Assembly: GCA_026415035.1 (NCBI GenBank) | Contig: JAOAHX010000002.1 | Coordinates: forward strand, 62,001-126,000 | DNA from: Thermodesulfobacteriota bacterium | GTDB taxonomy: Bacteria; Desulfobacterota; BSN033; UBA1163 | Direction of reading: 5' to 3' | Length of the DNA stretch: 64,000 nt | Part shown: piece by piece, positions 16,128-33,635 of the stretch | How the letters are laid out: each line of letters opens with the position of its first letter | Numbering within the stretch: the first letter of the stretch is position 1 | The notes under the pieces: generated by a model | The model's database searches: none | The model's input: the letters and a program-made list of their open reading frames with translations, nothing else | What the model was told of the DNA's origin: nothing | Program-made: the position numbers and the translations under genes

Positions 16128-16181
16128 GCCTATTCCTTCTTAGGGAGAGGTGGGTCATGTTCGGTCAACTATGGGGCCCCT

Positions 16182-17013: not shown

Positions 17014-17075
17014 GTCCTCATCTCAATCCCCTCCATCCTCCTATCACAAAGGAGGACACTTGACAACGTAGGCAT

Positions 17076-17690: not shown

Positions 17691-18271
17691 GATAGGTGCA
17701 TCGGAGAGGCCGAGGGGCTTGCCCAGGCCACGACGAGCCCCTTCTCTCCCACCTCTCTCTGATATTGGGAGAAGGATTCATAGGCGGGATGGACCTTGAT
17801 GTTCTTGAAGATATATCCCACCACCTTGTAGTCCTCTGGACGCCTGATCACGTGCTTTGCGATCCAGGTCTGGGAGATGCCGTCCCGTCGCATCTTCTCG
17901 GTATAGACCATCTCGCAGGAGACCGATCCCAGCGGGGTGTGATAGAGGACGGTGATGGTTTCTCCCTCCCGTTTGACCTCGCGATCGACCCCTACGAGTT
18001 CGGGTCGGCAGGCCATCTCTCGCAACCGGTAGATTCCGAGTCCCCGGTCGATCGTATCCTCCGGTGAGCGGGTGTTTTGAAAATCTGGGATCACCTTATG
18101 ATGGCCTCCGCCGATGTAATCGGCCACCTCCTCGAGGGAGGTCTCTTTTCCAAAAGGGGGGGGCAGGGTCCCTCGATAACGATGGGCATTAAACCAGAGA
18201 TCGATCCTCGGCACCCAGGGGAGATGGTCGCTCCACTCGCCCCGGATGGCCCTTAGCATCCGCTCTCTCAT
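17687..18271 (-). CDS. UROD-like protein, N-terminal half
   Basis: A 194-residue frame starting at the ATG at 18271 (MRERMLRAIRGEWSDHLPW). The frame is open upstream, but that part runs across the terminator of the tctC gene, so it is unlikely to be translated. The sequence has the opening of the UROD superfamily, with the usual R-A-I-x-G helix, then PRIDLWFNAHRYRGTLP and YHTPLGSVSCEMVYTEKM. It ends in SASPMHLS where the family should run on into the helix found at the start of the next frame. The neighbouring TTT genes suggest a methyl- or carboxyl-transfer step in catabolism. Confidence 0.7.
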   Translation of the reverse strand: MRERMLRAIRGEWSDHLPWVPRIDLWFNAHRYRGTLPPPFGKETSLEEVADYIGGGHHKVIPDFQNTRSPEDTIDRGLGIYRLREMACRPELVGVDREVKREGETITVLYHTPLGSVSCEMVYTEKMRRDGISQTWIAKHVIRRPEDYKVVGYIFKNIKVHPAYESFSQYQREVGEKGLVVAWASPSASPMHLS

Positions 18272-18307
18272 GGTTAGCGGTTCTTTCCCTGCCAATGGTT
18301 TACCTTT

Positions 18308-18349
18308 AAAAAGAGGCGAGTCGTTCCCTTTCTCGGGGAACGACTCGCC
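18308..18349 (-). terminator. Intrinsic terminator after tctC
   Basis: A perfect 14-bp stem, GGCGAGTCGTTCCC (18315-18328) with GGGAACGACTCGCC (18336-18349), closing a 7-nt loop. Read leftwards it is followed at once by TCTTTTT. It lies about 24 nt past the tctC stop and ends the TctB-A-C transcript before the UROD-like gene. Confidence 0.9.
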
Positions 18350-18372
18350 CTCTTTCCTTCCTTCCGTCAATC

Positions 18373-19341
18373 TCATTCCAATTTGATATTGAATTCCTTG
18401 ATCAACCTCCCGTAGTGCTCAAACCCTTCCTGGAGGAATTTGGCGAAGGCCTCGGGTCCTTGGTACAAGACCGGTTGTCCGATCTCCTGCATGCTCTTGA
18501 TGAACTCCGGATCCTCGCAGACCTTCTTGAACCGCTCGGCAAGGTACCGGATGACCTCGGAAGGCGTCCCTTTGGGAGCGGCGACACCCTTCACCGAGCC
18601 GGCGGTGACGACGTTATACCCCAGTTCCTTCAGTGTCGGGGTTTCGGGAAGGGCGGGATCCCTCTCCTCCAATGCCACGGCGATCGGGATCAACCGTTTC
18701 GCCTTGATGTGGCTGATGATTTCAGAGGGATGGTTTCCTCCGGTATCGGTCTGCCCTCCGACGATGGCCGTCACCGCCTCGGCCCCACCCCTGAAGGGGA
18801 CGGTCACGATTTTTAGGCCGGTGGCCTTCCCGATGGCCTGAAAGGTGATATCCACGGACCCGGCCCTTGTGGAGACCGAGGCCGTGACCTGATCCCTCTT
18901 CTTCCCCCACTCGACCAACTCTTTAAAGGTCTTGTATGGGGCGTCCCCCCGGACGACGACGACTACCGAGTGGATGGAGAGGCGGCAGACCGCGATCAGA
19001 TCTTTGAAGGTGTCGTAAGGGAGTTTCTGAAAATGGGGGGTGACCAGATCGTGTCCGGACCCGTACCCGAGGTAGAGGGTATATCCATCGGGTTTGGAAC
19101 GGACCACCCCTTCCGTTCCCGTGACCCCACCTCCACCGGGTTTGTTGACGACCACGAGGGGTTGATCGAAATATTTGGGGGCATATTTGGCCACCAGACG
19201 GGCCAATACGTCTGTAGAGCCGCCCGCTGCAAACGGAACGACCAGCTCGATCGGCTTGGAGGGAAATTTTTCCGCTGCCGATCCTACGCTGGAGAAGGCC
19301 AAAAGCGACGTTAACAAAAGGCTTAGAAAAATCTTCTTCAT
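18373..19341 (-). CDS. tctC: TTT transporter periplasmic binding protein, TctC/Bug family
   Basis: A 322-residue Bug-family receptor, second copy. A Sec signal (IFLSLLLTSLLAFSSVGSAA) precedes FPSKPIELVVPFAAGGSTD, the VVNKPGGGGVTGTEG loop and KPDGYTLYLGYGSG. It differs a good deal from the copy at 1.5-2.4 kb, so the two systems should have different ligands. It is the last gene of the second B-A-C operon, 76 nt after tctA, and is followed by a strong terminator. Confidence 0.93.
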   Translation of the reverse strand: MKKIFLSLLLTSLLAFSSVGSAAEKFPSKPIELVVPFAAGGSTDVLARLVAKYAPKYFDQPLVVVNKPGGGGVTGTEGVVRSKPDGYTLYLGYGSGHDLVTPHFQKLPYDTFKDLIAVCRLSIHSVVVVVRGDAPYKTFKELVEWGKKRDQVTASVSTRAGSVDITFQAIGKATGLKIVTVPFRGGAEAVTAIVGGQTDTGGNHPSEIISHIKAKRLIPIAVALEERDPALPETPTLKELGYNVVTAGSVKGVAAPKGTPSEVIRYLAERFKKVCEDPEFIKSMQEIGQPVLYQGPEAFAKFLQEGFEHYGRLIKEFNIKLE

Positions 19342-19417
19342 CTTCTTCCTCCTCCTCTTTTAAAAAATTGGATGTCTCATCCCTTGCCAAAGAAAACCTC
19401 TGATCCCTTCACCTCCT

Positions 19418-20953
19418 TTATTGGCCCGGATCCGTTTTCCCCTGGATCCTCCCTTTGGTCCATCTCCGACGCAAGACCCACCCGATCTGAAGCAGGATGA
19501 AGAGAATGAGAAAGCCCATCATGGCCCCCGAGATCGGACGCTTGAAGAAAATCCCGGGATTTCCGGCGGACATGAGCAGGGCTTGGCGGAGCGACCGCTC
19601 GAGGATTGGCCCCAAGACAAAGGCGAGGATGAGCGGTCCGGGTTCGAGCTCCACCTTCCTGAAGAAGTAGCCGATGACCCCGAAGAGGCCCATGACCCAG
19701 ATATCGAAGACGGAGTTTCGGATGCTGTAGACCCCCACACAGCAGAAGAGGACGATGATGGGGGCAAGGATGGCATAGGGAACCCGCAGAAGCTGGGCCC
19801 ACATTCCTACGAGGGGAAGGTTGAGGATGAGGAGCATCCCGTTCCCGATATACATCGAGGCCACCACGCCCCAGAAGACATCGGGCCTCTCGGTGATGAG
19901 AAAAGGCCCGGGTTGAACCCCCTGGATGAGGAGCGCGGCGAAGATCATGGCGATGGCCGCATTGCCGGGGATGCCGAGGGTGAGCAGGGGGATGAAGGAG
20001 GCGCTCGCTGCGGAGTTGTTTGCCGATTCAGGCCCAGCCACCCCTTGAATGGCACCCTTGCCAAACTCTTCGGGATGCTTGGAGACCTTCTTCTCCACCG
20101 CATAGGAGACGAGGGAGGAGATGACTGCGCCGCCTCCAGGCAGGATCCCGATGAAGAATCCGATCAACGATCCTCGAACGATGGCCCATTTCGATTCGGC
20201 CCAATCCTTGAGGCTCGGCCAGAGATGGGTGATCTTCTGGGTGACGACCTCTGTTTTCAGCTTCCGTTCGAGATTATAAAGGATCTCTCCGATGCCGAAG
20301 AGCCCCATGGCCAGCGTGACGAAGTCGATCCCCTCCTGGAGCATGAAGAGGCCGAAGGTGAACCGGATGGCCCCCGAAATGGGATCCAGTCCGATCGACC
20401 CGAGGAGCAGGCCCAAGACGATCATGATCAGCCCCTTCAGGACGGAACTTCCTCCGAGGAGGGTGGCGAGGAGAAGCCCTAAAAGGGTGAGGGAGAAATA
20501 TTCGGGCGGTCCAAACTTCAAAGCAAACTCGGCCAAAGGCGGGGCGACGAAGGTGATCCCGATCACCCCGACCGTGCCCGCGATAAAGGAGCCGATGGCG
20601 GCGATCCCAAGGGCAGGACCTGCACGGCCTTTCTGGGCCATCTTGTAGCCGTCGATGCAGGTGACGACAGAGGCCGCCTCTCCCGGGATGTTGACCAGGA
20701 TGGAGGTGGTCGATCCTCCGTACATGGCGCCGTAGAAGATCCCGGCCATCAGGATGATGGAGGTGACGGGAGAACCTATTTTGAAACTGAGGGGGAGGAG
20801 GAGGGAGATGGTGGCTGCAGGGCCAAGTCCTGGGAGGATCCCCACCACCGTCCCCAGGAAGGCTCCCAGGAAGGCAAAAGTGAGATTGGTGAGCGTGAGG
20901 GCGATTCCAAAGCCGTTGAACAATCCCTGAAAGGTTTCAAGAATCTCATTCAT
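19418..20953 (-). CDS. tctA: TTT transporter large permease, TctA family
   Basis: A 511-residue polytopic membrane protein, second TctA of the window. Signatures: GILPGLGPAATISLLLPLS, GIFYGAMYGGSTTSILVNIPGEA, GILPGGGAVISSLVSYAVEKK and GVAGPESANNSAASASFIPL. It follows tctB by 11 nt. The two TctA proteins are clearly related along their length but not near-identical, which argues for old paralogues or separate acquisition rather than recent duplication. Confidence 0.94.
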   Translation of the reverse strand: MNEILETFQGLFNGFGIALTLTNLTFAFLGAFLGTVVGILPGLGPAATISLLLPLSFKIGSPVTSIILMAGIFYGAMYGGSTTSILVNIPGEAASVVTCIDGYKMAQKGRAGPALGIAAIGSFIAGTVGVIGITFVAPPLAEFALKFGPPEYFSLTLLGLLLATLLGGSSVLKGLIMIVLGLLLGSIGLDPISGAIRFTFGLFMLQEGIDFVTLAMGLFGIGEILYNLERKLKTEVVTQKITHLWPSLKDWAESKWAIVRGSLIGFFIGILPGGGAVISSLVSYAVEKKVSKHPEEFGKGAIQGVAGPESANNSAASASFIPLLTLGIPGNAAIAMIFAALLIQGVQPGPFLITERPDVFWGVVASMYIGNGMLLILNLPLVGMWAQLLRVPYAILAPIIVLFCCVGVYSIRNSVFDIWVMGLFGVIGYFFRKVELEPGPLILAFVLGPILERSLRQALLMSAGNPGIFFKRPISGAMMGFLILFILLQIGWVLRRRWTKGRIQGKTDPGQ

Positions 20954-20964
20954 CCAACGGATCC

Positions 20965-21423
20965 TTAACCCGAAAAGAAACCCATGGGGAGTGGGACTTC
21001 CAGGAGCTTCCCGAAGATCAGGTAGAGAGAGGCGGTCACGGCGAACGATAACCCGATCACTCGAAACCAGCCGAGTTGTTCGATCACCTTCATCCAGGCC
21101 AGCAGAAAGAGGAAGGTCGTCAGGGGAAACCCCAGCCGTCCGATGGCCAAGGCATAGGAAAAGAGGATGAGGACGGCGAGCAAGGGCCGAAGCCAGGTCC
21201 GTTCCGGCCAGAAGGGCTTGGACCCCTTCCCCTTCCCGAGGCGGGTGAGGATCAAGATCGCGGAGAGGACGATCAAGGCGATGGAAAGACTGAAGGGAAG
21301 AAACCCCGAACCGGGATGCCGGAGGCTTCCCATCTTGAGTCCCACCGAGCTTAAGGCGGTCACCACGCCGATGACGAAGAGGACCGCGCCGGTCAGCCTA
21401 TCCCACTTTTCGATCGTGCTCAC
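20965..21423 (-). CDS. tctB: TTT transporter small permease, TctB family (start uncertain)
   Basis: A membrane protein of about 150 residues with four hydrophobic helices and the TctB loop SLRHPGSGFLPFSLS. The start is unusual. A perfect Shine-Dalgarno, GGAGGTGA (21427-21420), is followed 5 nt later by ATC (21414) exactly where the family's first Met is expected (xEKWDRLTGAVLF). The GTG at 21423 used here lies inside that Shine-Dalgarno; a TTG at 21489 lies upstream of a good promoter and would not be transcribed from it. Either an AUC start or a G-to-C change at this codon fits best. Confidence 0.8.
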   Translation of the reverse strand: MSTIEKWDRLTGAVLFVIGVVTALSSVGLKMGSLRHPGSGFLPFSLSIALIVLSAILILTRLGKGKGSKPFWPERTWLRPLLAVLILFSYALAIGRLGFPLTTFLFLLAWMKVIEQLGWFRVIGLSFAVTASLYLIFGKLLEVPLPMGFFSG

Positions 21424-21443
21424 CTCCCCGGTCAGGTGACGGT

Positions 21444-21473
21444 ATTGTAAATTAAATTCGGAAGGGGCGTCAA
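21444..21473 (-). promoter_or_regulatory. Promoter of the second tctBAC operon
   Basis: TTGACG (5 of 6) at 21473-21468, 18-nt spacer, TACAAT (5 of 6) at 21449-21444, reading leftwards. The predicted start, near 21437, leaves a leader of about 22 nt that holds the perfect GGAGGTGA ribosome site. Confidence 0.6.
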
Positions 21474-21489
21474 TATCGATGAAGTCCAA

Positions 21490-21749
21490 TAAGATTGCTT
21501 TCGGGGATGAGGAAAAGTTGGAACAAGGGGGTCTATTCTAAGCGTAATTTAAGAGAAACATGGGGTTCAATCTTTCAGGGAAAAGAAGGGAATCCTAAGA
21601 CCCATCAAATGGACCGGGCCAGCTCCCCTTCCCTTTTCCCCTTTTCCGTGTTACAAATCATTTCATCTCTGTAGGGGTACTGGAGGACCCAGTTAGGCTT
21701 ACTTACTCCGAAATATCTTTGCCCCCGCCTTTGCTTCATTTCAACCCCC
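21490..21749. other. Divergent intergenic region
   Basis: A 260-nt gap between the leftward tctB operon and the rightward polysaccharide operon. It is AT-richer than its surroundings (ATTTAAGAG, TTACAAATC) and should hold the promoter of the rightward operon, but I see no convincing -35/-10 pair or known riboswitch in it. Confidence 0.5.
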
Positions 21750-23015
21750 ATGGCGACCATCACGATATTTATCCTTTTATTCTTCCTCCTCATATTGATG
21801 ATTCTTTCCTTCATCGCATGGAGGAGGTGGCGCAGAGGGGTCTATTTTAAAAGGCTCGATCAAGAGGTGGAGCGGATGCGCCCCCTGATCGGGAAATTTA
21901 TAGAAGAGCCGAATTTGCCCGTCCCGGTCGAATGGAAATCTTCGCCAAACACGGTGAAGTGGCAGGCCATTGAGAGAGTGCTTTTGCGTTTGAGAAACAC
22001 GGCCCCGGCGGACCGACAGGCCTCGGTCGAAAGACTTTTTCATCATTTGGGGTATGCCGAATTTTATCAATCCCTTCTCAGCAAGGGAAACCGGTGGAAG
22101 CGCGCCCTTGCCGCGGAGCGATTGGGAGCCATGGGAGCCTCTGCGGCTTCCATCGAAGCCTTAATCCAAGCGTTGAGGGACCCTTCCAAAGAGGTACGGT
22201 CCATCGCCTTACGCTCTCTCGCCCAGATGGCTGATGAACGGTCGATCTCCTTTCTGGTGAAGGAACTTCCCCGGATGGTTCATCCTGAGACAGGGGTTTA
22301 TCTGGCGACGCTCAAAAATGCTATGATTCGCATGGGTGAGTCGCTCCTTCCCGTCCTTTTGCCCCACCTGGAGACCGATGATCCCCACGTGCTCTGTTTG
22401 GTGGCGGATGGTTTGGGAGAGATCGGATCGAAGGAGGCGACTCCCTATCTGATCCGCCTCTTAACCCATCCTGACCCCGAAGTGAGGGCCAAAACGGCCA
22501 AGGCCATTGGAAAAATCCATGATCCTTCTGCCGTCCCTGCCCTCCTGGCGATGGACCGGGAACCGGTCTGGTACGTTCGGCTTCAGGTGTGCCATTCTCT
22601 TGGCCTCTTAGGAGATGAAAGGGGAATTGATTTCCTGAAGGATCGGCTCGTTGATGAGAGCTGGCAGGTCAGGGCTGCGGCTGCCGAGGCCCTCATTAAA
22701 ATCGGTCCGCCCGCCCTTCCCTCCGTTGTCAGGATGCTCCAAGAAAACAAGGATCGCTATGCGAGAGAGCAGATCGCTGAGGAACTGCAGCGGTCCGGCA
22801 TGGTTGAGGAGTTGATCCACTCCTTGGGGGATCCTGACGATCCTCTGTTAGATTTAAAACGAAGCCTGTTCATGGCTCTGGTCTCCTTGGGGATGACGAA
22901 TTTCTTAAGATGGGTCAAGGAGAACCATCCTTCGGTGGGGGTTCGAAGGGAAGTCTCCCTTCTCTTAGAATCCGCTGAGTCTTCGGAGGGAAGCTCCCAC
23001 AGGAGGACCGAATGA
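21750..23015 (+). CDS. Membrane-anchored HEAT-repeat protein
   Basis: A 421-residue protein. One N-terminal membrane helix (ITIFILLFFLLILMILSFIAW) is followed by RRWRRG, which should keep the C-terminal part in the cytoplasm. Residues about 115-390 are HEAT/PBS-lyase-type repeats of about 31 residues, for example GAMGASAASIEALIQALRDP, GLGEIGSKEATPYLIRLL and AIGKIHDPSAVPALLAM. Such repeats bind proteins, so a scaffold for the synthase encoded next is likely. First of five genes, each overlapping the next by 4 nt (here ATGA at 23012). No clear Shine-Dalgarno precedes the ATG at 21750. Confidence 0.82.
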   Translation: MATITIFILLFFLLILMILSFIAWRRWRRGVYFKRLDQEVERMRPLIGKFIEEPNLPVPVEWKSSPNTVKWQAIERVLLRLRNTAPADRQASVERLFHHLGYAEFYQSLLSKGNRWKRALAAERLGAMGASAASIEALIQALRDPSKEVRSIALRSLAQMADERSISFLVKELPRMVHPETGVYLATLKNAMIRMGESLLPVLLPHLETDDPHVLCLVADGLGEIGSKEATPYLIRLLTHPDPEVRAKTAKAIGKIHDPSAVPALLAMDREPVWYVRLQVCHSLGLLGDERGIDFLKDRLVDESWQVRAAAAEALIKIGPPALPSVVRMLQENKDRYAREQIAEELQRSGMVEELIHSLGDPDDPLLDLKRSLFMALVSLGMTNFLRWVKENHPSVGVRREVSLLLESAESSEGSSHRRTE

Positions 23016-24457
23016 ACCTCTCCACCCCTGACCTCTTCATCCCGATCCTCCTTGGGTTCAACTATTTTGTGATCTTCTATTTTGGGTTCGTCAACACCAT
23101 CTATTTTGCCCTGCTCCTCCTCTCCCTCTTCACCGCTCTTCAACAATTGAGGAGGAGCCTCTTTGCGGGATATCAAGAAATGGCTTCCTCCCCGGTGACT
23201 CCTCCGGTCACCATTCTCGTGCCCGCCCACAATGAAGAGTTGACCATTGTGGATACGGTTCGTTCCCTGTTAAAATTAGATTATCCATCCTACGAAGTGA
23301 TCGTCATCGACGATGGCTCGACCGATAAGACGTTGGAGCAACTCATCCGACATTACCATCTCTATCCTGTCGATCTGATCTACCGACCTGTCATTCCCAC
23401 CGGGCCCGTCAGCGGTTTCTATATCAACCCGAGATATCCAAACCTCACCGTGATCCAGAAATCTTGGGGGGGGAAATCAGACGCCCTCAACGTGGGGATC
23501 AATCTGGCTCGAAGCCCCTACTTCTGTTCGATCGATGCGGATACGATTCTCGAGGGAGACGCTTTGCTAAAAATTATGAAGCCTTTTCTCGAATCGGAAA
23601 CCTTGGTGGCCAGCGGGGGGATCATCCGCATCCTGGATGGATGCACCGTGGAGGATGGGAGAATTGTCACCATCGATCTGCCTCGGAAGGATATCTTGAT
23701 TTTCCAGGTGGTGGAGTATCTTCGCTCCTTTCTCTTTGGGCGAACGGGGTGGAGCACCTTGGGCTGTCTCCTTGTGCTTTCGGGCGCTTTTTCGGTGTTT
23801 CAAAAAAAGGCGGTCCAAGAGGTGGGGGGGTATGCCAGGGACACCGTCACCGAGGACTTTGAATTAATCGTCCGCCTTCATCGGAGGCTGAGAGAGCGAA
23901 AACAGCCTTATCAGATCTCCTTTATTCCGGAACCGGCTGCCTGGACCCAAGTTCCGGATCGATATAGGATCCTGGCCCGGCAGCGACGGCGATGGCAGAG
24001 GGGGTTGGCGACGACCCTGTTCTCCAATCTGCGGATGTTCTTCAATCCCCGGTATGGAAAAATTGGACTGGTGGCCTTTCCGACGACTTTTTTCATAGAG
24101 CTTCTGGGCCCCGGGATCGAATTGCTGGGCTATGGCGTAGTCGCTCTCTCCTTCTATTTCAATTTGATCAATCTTCGGATGTTCTGGCTCTTCCTCCTTT
24201 TTGCCCTCCTTTATGGGGTGTTTCTCTCGGTGGGGGCCATCTTGATCGAAGAGATGACCTACCGAAGGTATCCCAAATGGAGCTCCCTCTTGAAATTGTT
24301 GGTCTATGCCGTGCTGGAGAATTTTGGGTATCGACAGCTCAACGCCTGGTGGCGGGTCCAGGCCCTCTTTCAACTTTTGTCCGGAAAGAATGGCTGGGGG
24401 AGAATCACCCGACGTCGATTTGCCAGGATTCGGTCGAGGAGGCCTGGGGGAAGATGA
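23012..24457 (+). CDS. Processive GT2 glycosyltransferase (polysaccharide synthase)
   Basis: A 481-residue inner-membrane synthase of the BcsA/PgaC type. One or two N-terminal helices precede a cytoplasmic GT-A domain with all the processive-enzyme motifs: VIDDGSTDKT, SIDADT (DxD), TEDFEL (catalytic Asp) and RQRRRWQRG (QxxRW). Four C-terminal hydrophobic segments (FFIELLGPGIELLGYGVVAL onward) should make the polymer channel. Presence of a deacetylase downstream suggests a polymer of N-acetylated hexosamine, as in poly-GlcNAc, but the sugar is not readable. No PilZ domain is present. Overlaps its neighbours as ATGA on both sides. Confidence 0.9.
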   Translation: MNLSTPDLFIPILLGFNYFVIFYFGFVNTIYFALLLLSLFTALQQLRRSLFAGYQEMASSPVTPPVTILVPAHNEELTIVDTVRSLLKLDYPSYEVIVIDDGSTDKTLEQLIRHYHLYPVDLIYRPVIPTGPVSGFYINPRYPNLTVIQKSWGGKSDALNVGINLARSPYFCSIDADTILEGDALLKIMKPFLESETLVASGGIIRILDGCTVEDGRIVTIDLPRKDILIFQVVEYLRSFLFGRTGWSTLGCLLVLSGAFSVFQKKAVQEVGGYARDTVTEDFELIVRLHRRLRERKQPYQISFIPEPAAWTQVPDRYRILARQRRRWQRGLATTLFSNLRMFFNPRYGKIGLVAFPTTFFIELLGPGIELLGYGVVALSFYFNLINLRMFWLFLLFALLYGVFLSVGAILIEEMTYRRYPKWSSLLKLLVYAVLENFGYRQLNAWWRVQALFQLLSGKNGWGRITRRRFARIRSRRPGGR

Positions 24458-26874
24458 AGGCTCGGCAGGAAGACCTCGGGTTTTTGGCCCTGCGAAATGG
24501 GGATCATCAGGAGGCGATCAACCTCTTCCTGAGGGCCCTTGAAAGGGGGCCGAGCGCCGAGGCCTATTATGGACTGGGGATGGCCTATCGCCAATTGGAC
24601 AATCGCCCCAAGGCCCTTTGGGCTTTTCACAAGGCCATCGAAATCGATCCCCATCATGCCAAGGCCTCCCATGCCCTCGAGCTTCTTGAGATCGGATCAG
24701 AGGAAGGGATCGAGCCCCCCGTTCCTCTCAAGGCGTTCAACGTCAGGACGTCTTCCGATTACCTTGAGAGGGAGGAGGGAGGACATTGGGAGAAGTTCTT
24801 CATCAAGGGGATCAACCTTGGGTTGGGGCTGCCCGGTTATTTCCCCGGCGAGTTTCCCATTGAAAAAGGCACCTACCTCAAGTGGTTCGAGAAGATTTAC
24901 GAACTCGGCATCAACTCGATTCGCCTCTACACGCTCCACCCCCCTTCGTTCTACGAGGCCCTCTACCAATTTAACCGTCCCCTTCCGAAACTCCGTTTAA
25001 TTCAAGGGATCTGGGTTGAATTGCCCCCTAAGAACGATTTTTTCGAGTCCTCGTATCTGGAGGAAGTCCAGGAGAACGTTCGGCACACGGTGGATGCCAT
25101 TTATGGGAAGCTGACCCTTCCGGAGAAGAAGGGAAGGCCTTCCGGTCGTTATCGCTACGATGTCTCTTCTTTAACCCTTGCCTTTTTGTTTGGCCGAGAA
25201 TGGGAACCCTGCGCGGTCAAGGGCTTTAACGAGAGACAAAAGAGGAGGTTCAAAAGCTATCGGGGGAGTTTTTTGGCCATTGAAGAGGGGACCCCCTTCG
25301 AGGCTTGGATCACCGAGATGGTGGATTATGTGCAGCATTATGAGAAGGAGAGACATGGCCTCTCCCATCCAGTCAGCGTAATCAACTGGCCTACCCTCGA
25401 CCCCCTAATTCATCCGGCGGAATCCACTTATGAAGAGAACCTGGAATTTCAGGGGATCAAGGTCAATCGGGCCCTCTGCAACGAAAATGAAGACGAAGAG
25501 ACCCTGGATCTGACGAAGATCAAGACGCTTCGGGGACCCGGGTTCTTCGCCACCTATCACATCTACCCCTATTACCCCGATTTCATGGTCAATGGATATC
25601 TCCAGGAAGGACATCCCTTTTTGGCCTACCTCCAACAGCTCAAAGCCTACCACGGCCGCCAACCCGTTCTCGTTGGAGAATTCGGCGTCCCGAGCAGCCG
25701 GATCAACGCCCATTGGCATCCCAGGGGATGGCATCAGGGGGGACACTCTGAAAGGCAACAGGGAGAGATCAACGGGACATTGATGAGGGCCATTTATCAG
25801 GCCAAGATGGCAGGGGGGATCCTGTTTTCCTGGTTTGACGAATGGTTTAAGAAAAATTGGCTTTTTCTCCCTTATTACGATCCTTCGGATCGAAAACCCT
25901 ATTGGTACAACCTTCAGGACGCCGAAGAGAACTATGGCCTCCTCTCCGCCTATCCTGGTTACCCGAGAAAAAGGGTCCATCTCTCGGGGGATCGCGCAGA
26001 TTGGCTTGAAGGCCTCCTGCTTTACGAAAAGCAGACGGACCAGATGGTGTTTAAATTTCATGACGGGTTTGACGAGGCCCGATATTTAAAGAGGGTGATG
26101 GCTCAACACGACGAAGGCTTCTTCTACCTCTTTATCGAGACCCAAGGCCCCGTCGATTTTACGAAGGCCCATTATCTGGTGGGGCTCGATACGATCGAGC
26201 CTGATCGAGGAGAATTTGGCCTCCCCCTTAACACCCTTGTGAGGCTTCCCATCGGACTGGAGTTTCTCATTCACCTTGCCGGCAAGGAGAAGAGCCGGAT
26301 GCTCATCTCCAAAGATTACGATAAGTATCTCAACGAAGATCGAGGGGAGATTCTTCCTCAGAGATCCGACCAGGGAGAATGGGTCCTCATGCTTCATAAG
26401 AGCAACGCCCGGAGAATCAGCAAAGACGGGAAGAGGTTCTTCCCTGCCCGGGTCCATTTGACCTCTCTGTTGCGATACGGGAGTTTGGATCCCAAACACC
26501 CAGACTATGACTCCCTGGCGGATTTCTACTTCGTGGACAACAGGATCGAAATTCGTCTCCCCTGGAGCCTTCTCCTCTTCACGGATCCCAGTTCGCGTAG
26601 GGTGCTTTGGAAAGATGGAAATTCCCAATCGAAAAAGACGGAGGGCATCCATGTCCTGGTCTTTTCCTATCGGCCCCAGGGGGGTCACCTCTTCGCCCAA
26701 CCTACCGGGCAGAGAACGAATCTCACCGATTCTTTGCCGGAACGGCTCCGGCGGGATGCGATGAAGGCCTATACGTGGGAGGAATGGGATAAGCCAACCT
26801 ATCATACCGCCCTGAAGCCGGCTTACCATCAATATCAAAAATATTTGCTCAATATCCCAGAGAGGATCGAATGA
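24454..26874 (+). CDS. TPR protein with glycoside-hydrolase-like TIM barrel
   Basis: An 806-residue protein starting at the ATG at 24454 (GGGGGAAG before it), which overlaps the synthase stop as ATGA. Residues 1-75 hold two TPRs (RNGDHQEAINLFLRALERGP; YRQLDNRPKALWAFHKAIEI). Residues about 110-500 resemble a clan GH-A barrel: FFIKGINLGLGLPGYFPGEF, LGINSIRLYTLHPP, FGREWEP (possible acid/base Glu near 249) and PVLVGEFGVPSS (possible nucleophile Glu near 408), with SWFDEWF at the end. The last 300 residues are strand-rich. No signal peptide is visible, so it should be cytoplasmic, which is unexpected for a polymer-trimming enzyme. I do not know a named family for it. Confidence 0.72.
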   Translation: MKARQEDLGFLALRNGDHQEAINLFLRALERGPSAEAYYGLGMAYRQLDNRPKALWAFHKAIEIDPHHAKASHALELLEIGSEEGIEPPVPLKAFNVRTSSDYLEREEGGHWEKFFIKGINLGLGLPGYFPGEFPIEKGTYLKWFEKIYELGINSIRLYTLHPPSFYEALYQFNRPLPKLRLIQGIWVELPPKNDFFESSYLEEVQENVRHTVDAIYGKLTLPEKKGRPSGRYRYDVSSLTLAFLFGREWEPCAVKGFNERQKRRFKSYRGSFLAIEEGTPFEAWITEMVDYVQHYEKERHGLSHPVSVINWPTLDPLIHPAESTYEENLEFQGIKVNRALCNENEDEETLDLTKIKTLRGPGFFATYHIYPYYPDFMVNGYLQEGHPFLAYLQQLKAYHGRQPVLVGEFGVPSSRINAHWHPRGWHQGGHSERQQGEINGTLMRAIYQAKMAGGILFSWFDEWFKKNWLFLPYYDPSDRKPYWYNLQDAEENYGLLSAYPGYPRKRVHLSGDRADWLEGLLLYEKQTDQMVFKFHDGFDEARYLKRVMAQHDEGFFYLFIETQGPVDFTKAHYLVGLDTIEPDRGEFGLPLNTLVRLPIGLEFLIHLAGKEKSRMLISKDYDKYLNEDRGEILPQRSDQGEWVLMLHKSNARRISKDGKRFFPARVHLTSLLRYGSLDPKHPDYDSLADFYFVDNRIEIRLPWSLLLFTDPSSRRVLWKDGNSQSKKTEGIHVLVFSYRPQGGHLFAQPTGQRTNLTDSLPERLRRDAMKAYTWEEWDKPTYHTALKPAYHQYQKYLLNIPERIE

Positions 26875-27647
26875 CCCTCACACGAAGAGACTTTCTGAAA
26901 GGAACCTTGGGGGCCTTCCTGATCTCTCCCGGGAGGGGACGGGACAGGGAGGTGCCTACGAAGAGGATCCCTGTTCTGCTCTATCACGACATCTCCAACT
27001 CGGTCAAAGACGACTACACCCTCTCCCCCGCTCAATTCGCTGCCCAGATGGAATGGCTCTATTCCGAGGGGTACCAGGCCCTCCTGTTTCGTGAGGTTCC
27101 CTCCCTGCCCGAAGAGCAGCTGGAGAGGAAGGTCGTGATCACCTTTGATGACGGATACGCCTCTTTTATCGATTACGCCTTCCCTTTGCTCCAGAGCTAT
27201 CAGTTCAAAGCCATTTTGAACCCCATCGGCGCCCACGTAGGGACCTTTATTCCTATGGGAACCAACCGGCCCCTTCTCAGCTGGGATGAGTACCGATATC
27301 TCTTGAAAACCGGGCTGGTGGAACTGGGATGCCACACTTATGAACTCCATCATTCGAAAGGGGCCCTATCTGTATCGGCATCGAGGTTGGAGAGCGACCT
27401 GCAGCGATTCCAGGAGGTGGCCCAGCGGGAGACCGGCCGGAGGGTTCAAATCTTGGCCTGGCCTTACGGATATTTTGATCGACAGAGTGTCCGGGTCGCC
27501 AAGAAGGTGGGATTTCAGTATCTCCTAACCTCGGAGGAAGGGCTCTTTGAGAGGGCTTCAGGATGGGATCGGATTCCAAGATTAAATATAAATTATAAGC
27601 TCGACCTGGTCTCCTTTAAGCAATATCTTGGGAGGAAAGAACAGTGA
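26871..27647 (+). CDS. Polysaccharide deacetylase (NodB-like), Tat-exported
   Basis: A 258-residue NodB-homology protein. It opens with TRRDFLKG, a good twin-arginine signal, and then VLLYHDISNSV as in PgaB-type enzymes. The metal-site motifs are TFDDGYASF (motif 1, catalytic Asp and metal Asp) and GCHTYELHH (metal histidines). WPYGYFD matches a later conserved motif. It should remove N-acetyl groups from the nascent polymer in the periplasm. Start and stop overlap both neighbours by 4 nt (ATGA and GTGA). Confidence 0.88.
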   Translation: MTLTRRDFLKGTLGAFLISPGRGRDREVPTKRIPVLLYHDISNSVKDDYTLSPAQFAAQMEWLYSEGYQALLFREVPSLPEEQLERKVVITFDDGYASFIDYAFPLLQSYQFKAILNPIGAHVGTFIPMGTNRPLLSWDEYRYLLKTGLVELGCHTYELHHSKGALSVSASRLESDLQRFQEVAQRETGRRVQILAWPYGYFDRQSVRVAKKVGFQYLLTSEEGLFERASGWDRIPRLNINYKLDLVSFKQYLGRKEQ

Positions 27648-29224
27648 AGAATAAAGGGTGGGTCATCGGGCTCCTCCTTCTCTGGAAGACCTCCCTCTGC
27701 GGGGCTGACACACCGGGGGAGGTGTCCGGGGAAGGACCCTACGGAAAAGGGATCGAAACCCATCCCCCGGTCCTAAGATCGTCCCAGGAGGACAGGGAAG
27801 GGGCGAGGCGCCATTACGAGTTGGGCCGGGCATGGGCAATTCGGGAAGATTTTAGAAAGGCAGGAGAAGAGTATCTCAAAGCCCTCTCCCTCCATCGGAT
27901 GGGTTTCACGGAGGAGGAGAGATTCCAGATGGCCCTTCACCTCTCCTGGGGGGGGTATCTTAAAGAAGCGATGGATCTGCTCTCCGAGATCCTCCGAGCC
28001 AATCCCGACCATCTCGATGCAAGGATTCATTTGGCCCGCTGCCTCTCCTGGGCAGGACGATTCCGAGACGCCTTAAGAGAAGCCGATTCCGTCTTACAAA
28101 AATACCCTGCCCATCGAGAGGCCCGATTCATTCAGGCCAATGTGTGGAGATGGAGGGGAGAGTTTCGAAGGGCCATTTCTCTTTACCACGAGTTGTTGAG
28201 AGAGAAAGAGGACTTCGATATCCGCCTGGGGTTGACCTACGCCCTGCTGCTCCGGGGGGATCGGAAGGGAGCTCAAGAGAGCGCGTCCCTGTTGAGGCCC
28301 AATTACCCTTACCAGGAGAGGGAATTAGCAAAGATTCGGGAGGAGATCAGGAAAAGAACGGCTCCTTTCTTAGAAGGACGTTCTCAATTCTATAGCGATT
28401 CGGATCACAACCGACTGCTACGATTCGCCCTCTCCGGAGGGGGATGGATCGATTCTTGGGAGGTGGCCCTCCATCTGACGGAAACCCATGCCCGAGACAA
28501 GTTCAGGGACCACCAGAGCGAGGAGGTTTCTTTTAGCGTCTATTCGAAGCCCTTTGAATCCCTGAGGGTAGGAGGGGGAATGGGGGTTACGCAACTCCGT
28601 CATCGGGAGTCGGATCATTACTTGGCCGGCGGTCTCAACGTCGATGTGGATCTTTTCCGCGGGACGATCGGGGCGAGGGTTTCTCGTGCCGTATTGGTGG
28701 ATACCGCCCAGTTAATCGAGAATCGAATCCGGGTCACTCAAGGGAGCTTACAATGCTCCCAGAACCTGGGAGAGGGTATTTCCTTCTATGGTAGCTACAC
28801 TTATCGGGATTATTCGGACCGCAACCATTCCCACGATGTTCAGTTGATTCCCCGGTATATCCTCCTGCAGAAAGACCCGAGGTTTGTCCTGGGTTATCGC
28901 TTCAGGTATCTCGATTTCGAGAGGCAGACCCGAAGGGGGTACTTCGATCCGGATCGTTTCCTTTCCCATCAACTCTTGGTCACTTTGGGGTTTGAGGGAG
29001 ATCGCTATGCCCTCCTTCTCGAACCATATGTGGGGTATCAATCCTTTCGGCGATACGGGACCCCGCATCACGATCTTATCGTTGGCGGAGCAGGGAACTT
29101 CCAGTATCGTATCGGAAAGAGGTTCGACCTCCTTTTGGCCACCGAGGCCGGAAACGACGCTTTGGGGGCCGCCTCGGGTTTCAAATATTATCAATTCACT
29201 TTAGGGTTAAAGGCTCATTTTTAG
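27644..29224 (+). CDS. TPR plus outer-membrane beta-barrel protein (YaiO-like exporter)
   Basis: A 526-residue protein starting at a GTG that overlaps the deacetylase stop. A short signal peptide (WVIGLLLLWKTSLCGAD) leads to TPR-like repeats at about residues 50-230 (RAWAIREDFRKAGEEYLKAL, HLARCLSWAGRFRDALREAD). From about 245 to the end the sequence alternates as amphipathic strands with aromatic ends and finishes in LGLKAHF, the C-terminal Phe used for beta-barrel assembly. The architecture matches YaiO-type and PgaA-type proteins: periplasmic TPRs plus an outer-membrane pore through which the polymer leaves. Confidence 0.82.
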   Translation: MKNKGWVIGLLLLWKTSLCGADTPGEVSGEGPYGKGIETHPPVLRSSQEDREGARRHYELGRAWAIREDFRKAGEEYLKALSLHRMGFTEEERFQMALHLSWGGYLKEAMDLLSEILRANPDHLDARIHLARCLSWAGRFRDALREADSVLQKYPAHREARFIQANVWRWRGEFRRAISLYHELLREKEDFDIRLGLTYALLLRGDRKGAQESASLLRPNYPYQERELAKIREEIRKRTAPFLEGRSQFYSDSDHNRLLRFALSGGGWIDSWEVALHLTETHARDKFRDHQSEEVSFSVYSKPFESLRVGGGMGVTQLRHRESDHYLAGGLNVDVDLFRGTIGARVSRAVLVDTAQLIENRIRVTQGSLQCSQNLGEGISFYGSYTYRDYSDRNHSHDVQLIPRYILLQKDPRFVLGYRFRYLDFERQTRRGYFDPDRFLSHQLLVTLGFEGDRYALLLEPYVGYQSFRRYGTPHHDLIVGGAGNFQYRIGKRFDLLLATEAGNDALGAASGFKYYQFTLGLKAHF

Positions 29225-29274
29225 AGCCCAGGGCCTTTTCCTCCCTCTCCCAGATGATTTTAAAGGAAAGAAGG

Positions 29275-30195
29275 TCACGGACCTTTGATAAAAGCCTCGA
29301 GCTCTTTTCTCGAGGGCAAGGAGGGTTGGGCGCCCAGTTTGGTGGTGGCGAGGGCGCCAGCGGCGTTGGCAAACCTCAATGCCTCTCGGATCGATTCCCC
29401 TTCCGAGAGGGCGCAAGAGAGGCCTCCCAAGAAGGCATCGCCTGCGGCCGTCGTATCGACCGCCTTCACCTTGAAGGCCTTCATCCGGATTTCCTCTTTA
29501 TCGTTCTTGAAGTAAAGGCCTTTTTGGCCCAGCGTGACCACCACATTCTTCACACCCATCCTCAATAATCTCTCGGCGATCTTCGGCAGGTCCTGATCGC
29601 TCCTCATCCTCATTCCAGCCAGGGCCTGGGCCTCCAGCTCGTTGGGCACGAGGTAGTCGATCTTGGCGAGGACCTCCCCTGAAAGCGGGTGGGCGGGGGA
29701 GGGGTTGAGTAGCGTGAGGAGGCCGTGAGTTTTGGCTATGTCCAGGCTCAGGGATACGACATCGAGAGGGACCTCCAGCTGAAGGACGAGGAGGCGTGCC
29801 TTCGGAAAAAAGGGGGTGCATCGCCTGATGTCTTCCACCGAGAGTTGGGCATTGGATCCCTGAAAGACGACGATCCTGTTCTCCCCTTTCGGGTCAAGCT
29901 CGATGAAGGCCATCCCCGTGGGGACCTTCCGGTCCAGAAAGATCGTCTTCGGGTCGAGACCCTTTTCGACCAGGTAGCGGCGATAGGCTTTTCCGTAATG
30001 GTCGTTGCCCAAGCGGGTGATCAGGGCGACCTCGGCGCCCAGCAGTTTTGCGGCGATGGCCTGATTGGCGCCCTTTCCGCCGAAGACGGTCGCAAGGCCC
30101 TCGGCCCGGAGGGTCTCTCCGGGGCGGTTAAAGCGGGGGACCCTCAGGATGAAGTCCACGTTCGAACTGCCGACGACGAGAACGAGGTTCGACAT
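29275..30195 (-). CDS. rbsK: Ribokinase
   Basis: A 306-residue PfkB-family sugar kinase with ribokinase features: GSSNVDFILRVPRFNRPGET at the start, FGGKGANQAIAAKLLG, VPTGMAFIELD, and the anion-hole/catalytic motif DTTAAGDAF, in which the first Gly of the usual DTxGAGD is Ala. It lies directly after a nucleoside hydrolase gene on the same strand, so together they would salvage ribose from nucleosides as ribose 5-phosphate. It is convergent with the polysaccharide operon. Confidence 0.88.
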   Translation of the reverse strand: MSNLVLVVGSSNVDFILRVPRFNRPGETLRAEGLATVFGGKGANQAIAAKLLGAEVALITRLGNDHYGKAYRRYLVEKGLDPKTIFLDRKVPTGMAFIELDPKGENRIVVFQGSNAQLSVEDIRRCTPFFPKARLLVLQLEVPLDVVSLSLDIAKTHGLLTLLNPSPAHPLSGEVLAKIDYLVPNELEAQALAGMRMRSDQDLPKIAERLLRMGVKNVVVTLGQKGLYFKNDKEEIRMKAFKVKAVDTTAAGDAFLGGLSCALSEGESIREALRFANAAGALATTKLGAQPSLPSRKELEAFIKGP

Positions 30196-30214
30196 CCTCC
30201 CGCCTCCAAGGGGA

Positions 30215-31144
30215 TCAAGGGTTCAACCTTGAGATGAAAAGGCTTAAAAACCGCTCTCTCTCCACTCCGAGACAGACCCCAAGCTCCGGCCCCTGTCTCC
30301 CTTCCGTGATCCTTCCCCAACCCTCTCCTTCTTCGGTTTGGACGCAGAGGCGGAGTTTTTCCTTTGTGGCCAGTCCGGGATCGATCACGACGCCGACCGC
30401 GAGGGGGTCGTGAAGGAAGACCCTCTCCCTGTTTCGGAACCTCCTGGCCTTGGGGTCGTAGCCCGTGGCCTCCATGAGGAACTGGGAGAAGGGAGTTCCA
30501 ATGGGTCGGATCCTTTCCTCCATCGCCTCGGGGGTGAGAAAGACCTGGTGCGTGACATCGAGGGGAACCAACGTGGTCGGAATTCCCGATTCGAAAACAA
30601 TTTGAGCGGCTACTGGATCGGAGTAGATATTGAATTCAGCAAAAGGGGTCACATTGCCCCGCGTCCGGACCGCCCCTCCCATGAGGACGATCTCTCGGAG
30701 AAGTTTCATCCCCTCCGGGTCCTTCTCCATTGCCAAAGCTAGGTTGGTGGGCGGTCCGATGGCGATGAGGGTCACTTCTCGAGGATGTCGCCGGGCCATA
30801 CGGGTGAAGAGTTCGTCTGCAGGTCCGGGAAAGAGGCTCCACCACGTCTCGTCCCCTTTGAAGTCGAGCGTGGCCTCGCCCAATCCCGTCTTCCCGTGAA
30901 CCGAATGGGCGTATAGGGCCCTGCCTTTCAGGGGGCGGTCCGCCCCCTTAGCGATGAGCGGTTTGTGATCCGGTCGGATCAGGGCGAGGACCTTCTGGAT
31001 GTTTTCAAAGACCGCCTCCAGCGGGACGTTCCCGTTCACGCCGCTCACCGCTAAGACCTCCAGCTCAGGGGAATGGAAGGCGAGGATCAGGGCGAGGGCA
31101 TCGTCCACGCCGACGTCACAGTCGATGATCACTTTCTTGGCCAT
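30215..31144 (-). CDS. Inosine-uridine-preferring nucleoside hydrolase
   Basis: A 309-residue nucleoside N-ribohydrolase. The calcium-binding N-terminus is IIDCDVGVDDALAL (the DxDxxxDD signature), followed by LEVLAVSGVNGN and, near 150-175, IVLMGGAVRTRGNVTPFAEFNIYSDP, where a conserved Asn-x-x-x-D block contacts ribose. HDPLAV near residue 245 supplies the usual active-site His and Asp. It should cleave nucleosides to base and ribose, feeding the ribokinase 20 nt downstream. Confidence 0.9.
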   Translation of the reverse strand: MAKKVIIDCDVGVDDALALILAFHSPELEVLAVSGVNGNVPLEAVFENIQKVLALIRPDHKPLIAKGADRPLKGRALYAHSVHGKTGLGEATLDFKGDETWWSLFPGPADELFTRMARRHPREVTLIAIGPPTNLALAMEKDPEGMKLLREIVLMGGAVRTRGNVTPFAEFNIYSDPVAAQIVFESGIPTTLVPLDVTHQVFLTPEAMEERIRPIGTPFSQFLMEATGYDPKARRFRNRERVFLHDPLAVGVVIDPGLATKEKLRLCVQTEEGEGWGRITEGRQGPELGVCLGVERERFLSLFISRLNP

Positions 31145-31185
31145 CGGGCCTCCTCTGAAAAAAATTCCGGTCTCGGGCCCGCCCT

Positions 31186-32376
31186 TCAGGGATGGGGGGA
31201 GACCGAAATCTCCATGGGCTTTCCCTCCCGGAGGATCAAGAAGAGGATCCCTTTTCCCGATCCGGTCCGGGTCACGGCGTCATGGAGGTCCTGCAATCTC
31301 AGGATTTCCTGTTCATTCACCCGGAGGATCCTATCGCCAGGAAGCAGCCCTGCCTTTTCTGCGGGGCTATCGGGCAAGATCCGTTCGATGAGCACGCCCG
31401 GGGTTTCCGAGGCCTTAAGAACGAGGCCGATCCGCGGCCTCCTCTTCTCAGGTGCAGAAGGGTGGGTGAGCCAGAGATAGTCAGCCGGGGGGCGGGAGAT
31501 TTGGGAGAACATCGGGTCCTTCTGGATCTCTTTGCCCCATTCTCTTAAGAGGATCGTCTTGTAGGGAAGAGGGGACCTCCGGAAGAACCGCTCGGGGATC
31601 CCGAACCGATAGATGATATGGCCGGCGCCAGCGATCACGACGATCGTCTTTCCCTCTCCCTCGGGAGAGCTTAGAAAGTTCGAGAGGGTTTCGGCCATCC
31701 CTTCATCCCAGAGGACCTGGGCAAGATAGAACCGTTCGAAATCTTTCGCCAGTCCGCCTTCGTGACCCCGGTAGATGGATTCGATGTAGCTGCGGTGGAG
31801 CGGGTGGCCAAGGTCCATCTCCGGAAGGCCCTTCCTCTCTTCTTCCGAAAGGCTATCGATTCCTCCCTGGGCGGCTTTCCTCACCAGTTCCCTCGGGACA
31901 TTGAGGGCAAGGACCTTGAGACCCCGGTCCCTCGCCTCGTCGAGGAGGCCTTTGTAGAGCCGATAATCCATCCCCCACGTGGTCTCCCACTCTATCTGGC
32001 GGAGAAACTCCTCCTCGCTGAGAAGCCCCTTGGTCCACCGATCGAGGAGGGGTTGTTGGGGCCTCTGGAACATCTCCATGGCGATGACGACCGCTTTTCC
32101 CTGGTCCACAAGCGCCCGGATGATCCTCCTCTGGATCTGGTGATGCTCCATCTGATCGTGGGATTCTCCGGTGAAGATCACCCTTGCCCCTCGCAACTCT
32201 TCCATCAATTGCGGAAAGGAGAGCCTCCCGCCATCCGAGAGCCTGAAGATCTCCTCCGCATGAGGGGGAGGGGGGTTAAGCGAGATCTTCGCAACCCAGG
32301 AAGGGGGAGAGGGTTTCAAACAACTGAGAAAGAGGAGGGGAAGAAAGGCGGTGAGGAGAAGGCCCGGGGATTTCAT
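31186..32376 (-). CDS. ChaN-family lipoprotein fused to a PDZ domain
   Basis: A 396-residue lipoprotein: signal peptide with lipobox LFLSC. Residues about 45-295 are a ChaN/EreA-like domain with IFTGESHDQMEHHQ, AVVIAMEMFQRP, and VIAGAGHIIYRFGIP; ChaN binds haem and relatives are iron-regulated. Residues about 310-396 are a PDZ domain (GVLIERILPDSPAEKAGLLPG). The fusion suggests docking to a C-terminal peptide of an envelope protein. The second ATG at 32376 is chosen because a TATAAT lies only 7 nt before it, so the mRNA may be leaderless; the first ATG (32385) overlaps that -10 box. Confidence 0.85.
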   Translation of the reverse strand: MKSPGLLLTAFLPLLFLSCLKPSPPSWVAKISLNPPPPHAEEIFRLSDGGRLSFPQLMEELRGARVIFTGESHDQMEHHQIQRRIIRALVDQGKAVVIAMEMFQRPQQPLLDRWTKGLLSEEEFLRQIEWETTWGMDYRLYKGLLDEARDRGLKVLALNVPRELVRKAAQGGIDSLSEEERKGLPEMDLGHPLHRSYIESIYRGHEGGLAKDFERFYLAQVLWDEGMAETLSNFLSSPEGEGKTIVVIAGAGHIIYRFGIPERFFRRSPLPYKTILLREWGKEIQKDPMFSQISRPPADYLWLTHPSAPEKRRPRIGLVLKASETPGVLIERILPDSPAEKAGLLPGDRILRVNEQEILRLQDLHDAVTRTGSGKGILFLILREGKPMEISVSPHP

Positions 32377-32383
32377 TAAATTC

Positions 32384-32389
32384 ATTATA
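32384..32389 (-). promoter_or_regulatory. -10 box of the chaN-like gene (leaderless transcript)
   Basis: A perfect TATAAT at 32389-32384 (minus) ends 7 nt before the ATG at 32376, so transcription should start at or within a base or two of the A of that codon. No good -35 is visible at normal spacing. Confidence 0.5.
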
Positions 32390-32496
32390 ACATCCTCGGA
32401 TAGACCACGGGTAGTCGAAGGAGGAGGCCTCTCCTTGAAGGCCGAGGGGAATTATGATATCCATCTTTTGAAGTCGCCCTCGGAGGAGAGAAGGAT

Positions 32497-33570
32497 ATGA
32501 GAAAGGGGCTGTTCGTGATCGGATGGGTTTGCTTCATCCTCTTGGGAGGGGGGAGCTTTGCGATCGGTCAGACCCCTCCGGGCCCATCTGAAGGGGTTTC
32601 CCTACAGAGATCCCAGGAAACCGTCAGGGCTTTGACCGAGAGGATCGCGACCCTTGAAGCCACCCTCTCCCAACTTTACACCGAGGTGGAGGCGCTTCGC
32701 AACGCCTTGCGGAGCCTCCAGATCCGACCTCCCCTGACCTCTTATAAACTACCGCGGGAGGTGACCCTATGCGGGGAGAGGATCCCTCTCGAAGAGCGAT
32801 CGGTCTGGGAAAATCTCGACCGGGAATTCCTCATCGCCCTCGACAACCACGCCCAGATCCTCCTTTGGATGAAACGGGCCAGGCGGTACTTCCCGTTGAT
32901 CGAAAAACGGCTCAAGGAGATGAATCTTCCCAGCGATCTCAAGTATGTCACCATCGTTGAGAGCGCTCTCAGACCCTATGCGGTCTCCTCCGCCGGAGCG
33001 GCTGGGATTTGGCAATTCATTCCAACGACAGGGGAGAAGTATGGGATGAGAAGGACCAAGGGGCTTGACGAGCGATTCGATTTTTTCAAGGCCACCGAAG
33101 GGGCCTTGAATTATCTGAAGGCGCTCTATGAGGAGTTCGGAAGCTGGTCCCTAGCCTTGGCGGCCTACAATGCCGGGGAAAAACGGATACGACAGGAGAT
33201 CGACCTTCAGAAAACCACCCGTTACTACTCTCTCGATCTCCCCCTTGAGACCGAACGATATGTCTACAAGATTGCGGTAGCCAAGCTGATCCTCTCCGAT
33301 CCCGGAAGGTTCGGTTTCCATCTGGACGAGGAGGACCTCTATGAGCCTCTCCGTCTGGAGCGGGTCCAGATCGAGCTATCGCAACCTCTCCCCCTGATCG
33401 AAGTGGCCAAGGCCATCGGAGCTTCCTACAAAGAGGTCAAGGAGATGAACCTCCACTTTTCGGCGGAGTCCATTCCCACGGGTCACCACTTTCTCAATCT
33501 GCCCCAAGGGACCTCGGAGCGGTTCCTGGGCTTCTTCTCCCAGTGGCAAAAGGAGGTTCAAAGGAAATAG
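32497..33570 (+). CDS. Membrane-bound lytic murein transglycosylase (MltD-like)
   Basis: A 357-residue secreted protein with signal peptide (LFVIGWVCFILLGGGSFAIG), a short coiled-coil (VRALTERIATLEATLSQLY) and an SLT domain: VTIVESALRPYAVSSAGAAG holds the catalytic Glu, followed by GIWQFIPTTGEKYG, ALNYLKALYEEFGSWSLALA and AYNAGE. The C-terminal LPLIEVAKAIGASYKEVKEMN looks like a single LysM-like or DUF-type peptidoglycan-binding unit. It cleaves glycan strands with anhydromuramyl formation. Ribosome site GGAGAGAAGG is close to the ATG. Confidence 0.88.
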   Translation: MRKGLFVIGWVCFILLGGGSFAIGQTPPGPSEGVSLQRSQETVRALTERIATLEATLSQLYTEVEALRNALRSLQIRPPLTSYKLPREVTLCGERIPLEERSVWENLDREFLIALDNHAQILLWMKRARRYFPLIEKRLKEMNLPSDLKYVTIVESALRPYAVSSAGAAGIWQFIPTTGEKYGMRRTKGLDERFDFFKATEGALNYLKALYEEFGSWSLALAAYNAGEKRIRQEIDLQKTTRYYSLDLPLETERYVYKIAVAKLILSDPGRFGFHLDEEDLYEPLRLERVQIELSQPLPLIEVAKAIGASYKEVKEMNLHFSAESIPTGHHFLNLPQGTSERFLGFFSQWQKEVQRK

Positions 33571-33635
33571 GCCCGTTGGTCGGGTTGAATTTCTTGGCGA
33601 AAAGGCCTATCCTTGTTTCCGGAGGTTGTCGTTCC

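Follow-up and report, generated by a model that had tools for sequence, protein, structure and literature searches.

A five-gene operon with a HEAT-repeat protein, a probable synthase-dependent exopolysaccharide system of its own type

Several described exopolysaccharide systems are built from similar parts. The PNAG systems PgaABCD/IcaADBC combine a GT2 synthase, a CE4 deacetylase and an exporter consisting of TPRs and a 16-strand barrel; the second domain of PgaB is assigned to GH153. The cellulose system BcsABZC has an inner-membrane GT2, a glycoside hydrolase (BcsZ, GH8) and a TPR-barrel exporter, and Pel (PelA-G) has deacetylase and hydrolase activities together with a TPR-barrel. In E. 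coli, the yaiO-yaiP-yaiS cluster, by its gene names, unites an outer-membrane barrel, a GT2 and a deacetylase, and NfrA-NfrB joins an exopolysaccharide GT2, annotated as c-di-GMP-activated, to an outer-membrane partner. The operon described here follows the same plan, yet by the features tested it is neither Pga nor Bcs. It lies in a 64,000-nucleotide stretch of Thermodesulfobacteriota DNA, which we call the window, and it encodes five proteins:

21750 to 23015, + strand: P0001, HEAT-repeat membrane protein (HEAT_2, E=2e-42, Pfam)
23012 to 24457, + strand: P0002, GT2 synthase with TM segments (Glycos_transf_2, E=1e-24, Pfam)
24454 to 26874, + strand: P0003, TPRs (by Pfam), followed by a predicted clan GH-A barrel and C-terminal beta domain (by model)
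26871 to 27647, + strand: P0004, NodB/CE4 deacetylase with a twin-arginine leader (Polysacc_deac_1, E=1.3e-21)
27644 to 29224, + strand: P0005, TPR and outer-membrane beta-barrel exporter with a C-terminal Phe (TPR match; 16-strand model)

An earlier note on this DNA had read these five ORFs as one rightward run with a 4-nt overlap at every junction. The ORFs were found exactly there, and an ATGA or GTGA overlap is read at each junction. The domains it had assigned were also matched (HEAT_2, GT2, TPR, Polysacc_deac_1 and TPR-barrel in P0001 to P0005), and the parts of the synthase-dependent machine that it had proposed, a processive-type GT2, a deacetylase and a TPR-barrel exporter, were all recognised. 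Taken with the predicted structures, these assignments make it probable that the five genes specify an exopolysaccharide machine of the synthase-dependent kind, and one of a separate type in which the synthase has a HEAT partner.

PgaC is the best named profile for P0002 (133.7 bits against a cut-off of 422.3), and PgaB is that for P0004, with E=7e-40 (136.8 bits against a cut-off of 321.9). The operon might thus be read as a divergent Pga (PNAG) operon that has PgaC and PgaA, a PgaB divided into two proteins, one deacetylase and one hydrolase, and an unrelated substitute for PgaD. Besides these two profiles, P0004 retains the metal-site residues of E. coli PgaB, and the P0005 barrel is of the PgaA type. 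However, all three scores fall far under the Pga cut-offs. P0002 has the DDGS, DAD, TED and QRRRW motifs, and in our tree it falls in a clade apart from PgaC and NodC, with support of 94/98, slightly under the 95/80 mark, and with NodC and YaiP on very long branches. Moreover, the hydrolase P0003 is predicted to be a separate clan GH-A enzyme with two Glu rather than GH153, the deacetylase is of Tat type and lacks the C-terminal hydrolase half, and the GT2 has a HEAT partner in place of PgaD. Searches of the ORFs, Pfam and NCBIfam gave no PgaD partner among the five proteins, none of which is small and PgaD-like, and the overlapping genes leave no space for one. We therefore consider a divergent Pga operon unlikely.

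Compared with BcsABZC, the operon has a hydrolase of a different clan and an added deacetylase, and neither a BcsB subunit nor a c-di-GMP-binding PilZ domain, on the GT2 or elsewhere, was found in the five proteins with Pfam and NCBIfam. Unlike Pel, its synthase is a GT2; when its five proteins were scanned with Pfam and NCBIfam, no PelD, PelE, PelF or PelG was named, so that PelD/PelF/PelG-type parts are unrecognised in the operon. The E. coli clusters also differ: YaiP is only remotely similar (23% over 224 residues), its cluster is without a HEAT or GH gene, the NfrA-NfrB region is without a HEAT gene, and a HEAT profile found none in the pga, yai, bcs and nfr regions. With the Pga cut-offs missed and the Bcs domains not found, no named system fits. 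The HEAT protein occupies the place expected for PgaD or BcsB, which agrees with the proposal in the earlier note that the scaffold differs.

The alignment of P0004 (258 aa) with E. coli PgaB covers only the first, CE4 half of the latter. The metal-site residues kept are TFDD and the H-x4-H spacing (HTYELH), and most homologues have WPYG or WPFG, whereas the f30 group has SPLG or SPFG. By its sequence, P0004 is a CE4/NodB deacetylase with an Asp-Asp/His-His metal site. Its leader contains RRDFLK, in which the RR is kept in homologues; the Pfam TAT_signal match is weak and under the cut-off, and TatC occurs twice in the genome. With a twin-arginine leader and a TatC in the host, P0004 is a predicted Tat substrate.

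The model of P0005 (pLDDT 87.0) has N-terminal TPR helices followed by a C-terminal 16-strand barrel:

28367 to 29221, + strand: 16-strand barrel domain of P0005, residues 242-526 (predicted model)

A Foldseek search with P0005 placed BcsC best and PelB third, and matched the PgaA barrel 4y25 with a TMt of 0.81; all three were in the top five. The C-terminal residue of P0005 homologues is Phe or Leu. By its modelled fold, P0005 is a TPR and beta-barrel exporter of the PgaA/BcsC/PelB type.

Relatives of P0003 were collected from genome contigs together with same-phylum genomes, and the same five genes were found in the same order in other genomes at 22-87% identity, distant ones included, as the earlier note's claim of a single set would have it. 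The complete order of HEAT, GT2, TPR/GH, Tat-type NodB and barrel genes is present at L008, L010, L023, L025, L026, L027, L094 and L097. At L007 the HEAT protein was too divergent for the initial search and was recovered in later ones; at L024 an additional gene separates HEAT from GT2; one five-gene set is divided between two contigs (L028 and L032); the L029 contig begins within HEAT; and at L009 the HEAT and GT2 genes point the other way from the rest of the set. In one genome (G085; L025, 11532-14402) a 401-aa opposite-strand ORF, which is probably an insertion sequence, interrupts the exporter gene, with a possible loss of export as the result. P0003 relatives are rare, occurring in 12 of 395 phylum genomes. 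In the 297-genome phylum sample searched with P0002, all 10 genomes known to carry P0003 also have the P0002 clade, compared with 6 of the 287 others (Fisher p ~6e-15, for genomes that are not independent). Unrelated genes can also acquire tight overlaps, and the five might be an unrelated run that overlaps by chance; this is very improbable, given the recurrence of the same order in many genomes and the presence of P0003 and the P0002 clade together in 10 of 10. Because the order recurs in other genomes, the linkage of the five genes is not due to chance.

The HEAT-GT2 pair extends well beyond this set. P0001 has a single N-terminal TM (residues 4-22, by hydropathy) followed by RRWRR, and its HEAT array is predicted to face the cytoplasm. 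Wider relatives of P0002 came from a plasmid tblastn, which gave matches at 33-44% in haloarchaea, Deinococcus, Paenibacillus, Planococcus, Mesorhizobium, Erythrobacter, Devosia, Legionella, Emticicia and Bacteroides. A HEAT gene adjoins the GT2 gene in 12 of the 12 plasmid genera of the clade, spanning haloarchaea, Deinococcus, Bacillota, Bacteroidota and Proteobacteria, and a HEAT homologue lies next to each clade GT2 that was checked. Beside the GT2 genes of five more distant genera (Kocuria, Enterococcus, Prevotella, Levilactobacillus and Sphingomonas) there is no HEAT gene. A HEAT profile built from 14 members matched all held-out loci with a clade GT2 and none of the negative loci. The strongest finding of the analysis is that HEAT and GT2 are paired across Bacteria and Archaea.

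The neighbours of the pair differ between loci, and a shorter HEAT-GT2-barrel version stands alone in G137, G275, G294 and G384; the GH and NodB genes are thus an add-on. The five-gene unit of the earlier note accordingly holds in part: its order is conserved, but the general feature is the HEAT-GT2 pair, and GH plus NodB belong to some lineages only. A fusion of HEAT and GT2 in G260, considered as proof of contact, was rejected, the ORF being a 1168-aa HEAT protein beside the GT2 with an N-run between them. This HEAT partner (L085, 7790-11296; ~1168 residues) is roughly three times the usual size. On a Planococcus plasmid (L035, 3069-11423), genes for a CotH kinase, a polyphosphate polymerase-domain protein and a DUF4956 protein precede a GH-HEAT-GT2 set. 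Directly upstream of HEAT-GT2, or one to two genes before it, a CheY-like response regulator is encoded at L045, L046, L050, L052, L053 and L082. At L046, L050 and L082 HEAT comes after both the regulator gene and one for a TPR or YaiO-type barrel protein; at the haloarchaeal L045, L052 and L053 the regulator is present and the barrel absent. The CheY-like regulator is a possible control input.

Outside the TPRs, the ~700-aa region of P0003 has no Pfam, NCBIfam or PDB-sequence match, and a PDB sequence search with the protein returned TPR proteins only. The TIM barrel claimed in the earlier note is nevertheless backed by the predicted structure, in which we distinguish the following features:

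24730 to 25953, + strand: TIM-barrel region of P0003, ~residues 93-500 (AlphaFold2; VIA-align to GH157)
25198 to 25200, + strand: codon of Glu249, putative acid/base, at the end of strand beta4 (FGREWE; homologue alignment and model)
25678 to 25680, + strand: codon of Glu409, putative nucleophile, at the end of strand beta7 (VGEFGVP; homologue alignment and model)
26074 to 26871, + strand: C-terminal beta-sandwich-like domain of P0003, ~residues 541-806 (strand pattern in model)

The AlphaFold2 model has a pLDDT of 77.6 and a pTM of 0.80, with several loops <50. VIA-align superposed it on GH157 with Z=30.0 (rmsd 2.8 over 315 residues, 17% identity) and on GH2 and GH72 enzymes with Z of about 25-27; Foldseek TM-scores were low, at 0.2-0.3 of the query. 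Clan GH-A enzymes have a (beta/alpha)8 barrel with a Glu pair, one where strand 4 ends and the other where strand 7 ends. E249 and E409 are nearly invariant in an alignment of 16 homologues that omits the second, tandem Paenibacillus copy, and invariant in 13 homologues; the sole exception among the aligned rows is Planococcus, the most distant relative, in which both catalytic Glu are lost. According to the model, the barrel of P0003 belongs to clan GH-A, and both of its catalytic glutamates are present. The C-terminal domain may resemble CBM9-type domains. At L034 (8845-14158), the HEAT and GT2 genes of Paenibacillus lie downstream of a tandem pair of P0003-like genes, and the second of these encodes a 1033-aa protein with a long extra N-terminal region. 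The P0003-like protein of G384 (L030, 8004-12074) is secreted, and its 1356 aa include ~450 additional residues at the C-terminus; its gene is far from the HEAT-GT2-barrel set of the same genome.

Where P0003 acts can be approached through its relatives. The earlier note had described a cytoplasmic TPR-glycosidase; indeed, P0003 has no signal peptide, and the 14 homologues of the NodB-linked clade have neither signal nor TM. Outside this clade, however, relatives in G384 and G409 carry a signal, and those of Deinococcus, Paenibacillus (two tandem copies) and Planococcus carry an N-terminal anchor, all in cassettes without NodB; the G260 relative, cut at its start, counts in neither group. The G409 neighbourhood was examined after this signal/NodB pattern had been set down, and signal present with NodB absent is what the pattern expects. 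Because the tree needs one change only (99/99), the link between signal and NodB represents one evolutionary event, not many, and could reflect history rather than mechanism. Tat hitchhiking is known, for example in PaoABC (PMC4273604). As a speculative lead from these sequences, P0003 may leave the cell as a Tat hitchhiker with the NodB protein P0004, and a cytoplasmic role is about as likely. A truly cytoplasmic P0003, priming, trimming or recycling chains at the synthase, with the TPR and HEAT proteins forming a cytoplasmic control complex, would suit the signal-less clade, the N-terminal TPRs and the predicted cytoplasmic HEAT array; the anchored or secreted relatives, owing to which P0003 may not act in the cytoplasm, and a fold like that of secreted polysaccharide enzymes argue the other way, and we place it a little short of an even chance. 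The signal/NodB pattern offers a clear test of Tat hitchhiking beyond the complexes known to use it.

For the HEAT-partnered machine we propose the following course. P0002, which we infer to be processive and part of a complex, would build a chain from a nucleotide sugar that is probably UDP-GlcNAc or related to it, and pass this chain through the inner membrane. That substrate, like the polymer, is inferred, since the GT2 score is far under the PgaC cut-off. P0001, with its one-TM tether, would be an obligate cytoplasmic scaffold or switch of the GT2, in place of PgaD or BcsB/PilZ. The PgaB-type NodB protein P0004 would partly deacetylate the chain in the periplasm, and P0003 would trim or transglycosylate the same chain; more speculatively, lacking a signal, it would leave with P0004 as a Tat hitchhiker or else act in the cytoplasm. 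P0005 would gather the chain on its TPRs and then export it.

The likeliest product, judging from sequence, is a partly deacetylated amino-sugar chain, because PgaC and PgaB are the nearest profiles and glmS lies beside an archaeal member: next after the GT2 in Halosolutus come glmS and a gene for a nucleotidyltransferase. The GH-A fold neighbours in the P0003 model do not point to GlcNAc. They are mostly beta-1,3-glucan and glucuronide enzymes (GH157, GAS2/GH72 and GH2 glucuronidases), and the Legionella cassette includes nucleotide-sugar dehydrogenase and epimerase genes, so that the P0002 clade may make several polymers. Both would accord with a glucan or uronic-acid polymer, from which NodB removes acetyl groups other than those of GlcNAc. 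However, substrate is not given by fold similarity, the nearest named profiles are PgaB and PgaC, and glmS adjoins the archaeal member; a glucan or uronan is, in our judgement, fairly unlikely, and the amino-sugar chain is preferred.

A broader reading, which we put forward tentatively as possible though doubtful, is that HEAT-GT2 constitutes an unrecognised synthase-dependent class in Bacteria and Archaea. HEAT would be its allosteric switch, driven in many lineages by the adjacent CheY-like regulator instead of a c-di-GMP input of PilZ/PgaD type, and the signal-less glycosidase of this lineage would enter the periplasm on the Tat-exported deacetylase. If so, the annotations of a widespread family of synthases are scattered over separate names ('HEAT repeat protein', 'glycosyltransferase', 'YaiO'), and the one machine behind them has gone unseen. 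HEAT would then differ from PgaD, BcsB and Alg44 as the partner of a synthase, and response regulators would be a likely second means of control, archaea included. Searches of the open-access literature for HEAT with GT2, YaiO, CotH/DUF4956, PNAG or exopolysaccharide turned up no paper describing this set or its HEAT-GT2 pair. Environmental bacteria with pga operons without pgaD have been described, with HEAT unmentioned (PMC7112194), and it is possible that those loci overlap some of the HEAT-GT2 loci.

An Rfam scan of 16000-34000 gave no match, hence no riboswitch control was found there, and promoter and terminator scans gave counts close to those of shuffles. The operon is flanked upstream by TTT-type transporter genes and downstream by a ribokinase-like gene; these lie on the opposite strand and were left out of it. 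By sequence look, the window encodes two TctA-like proteins of the tripartite tricarboxylate transporter type (2483-4006 and 19418-20953). At 10283-11452 it encodes a single 389-aa protein in which an SfsA domain is fused to a DUF123 domain.
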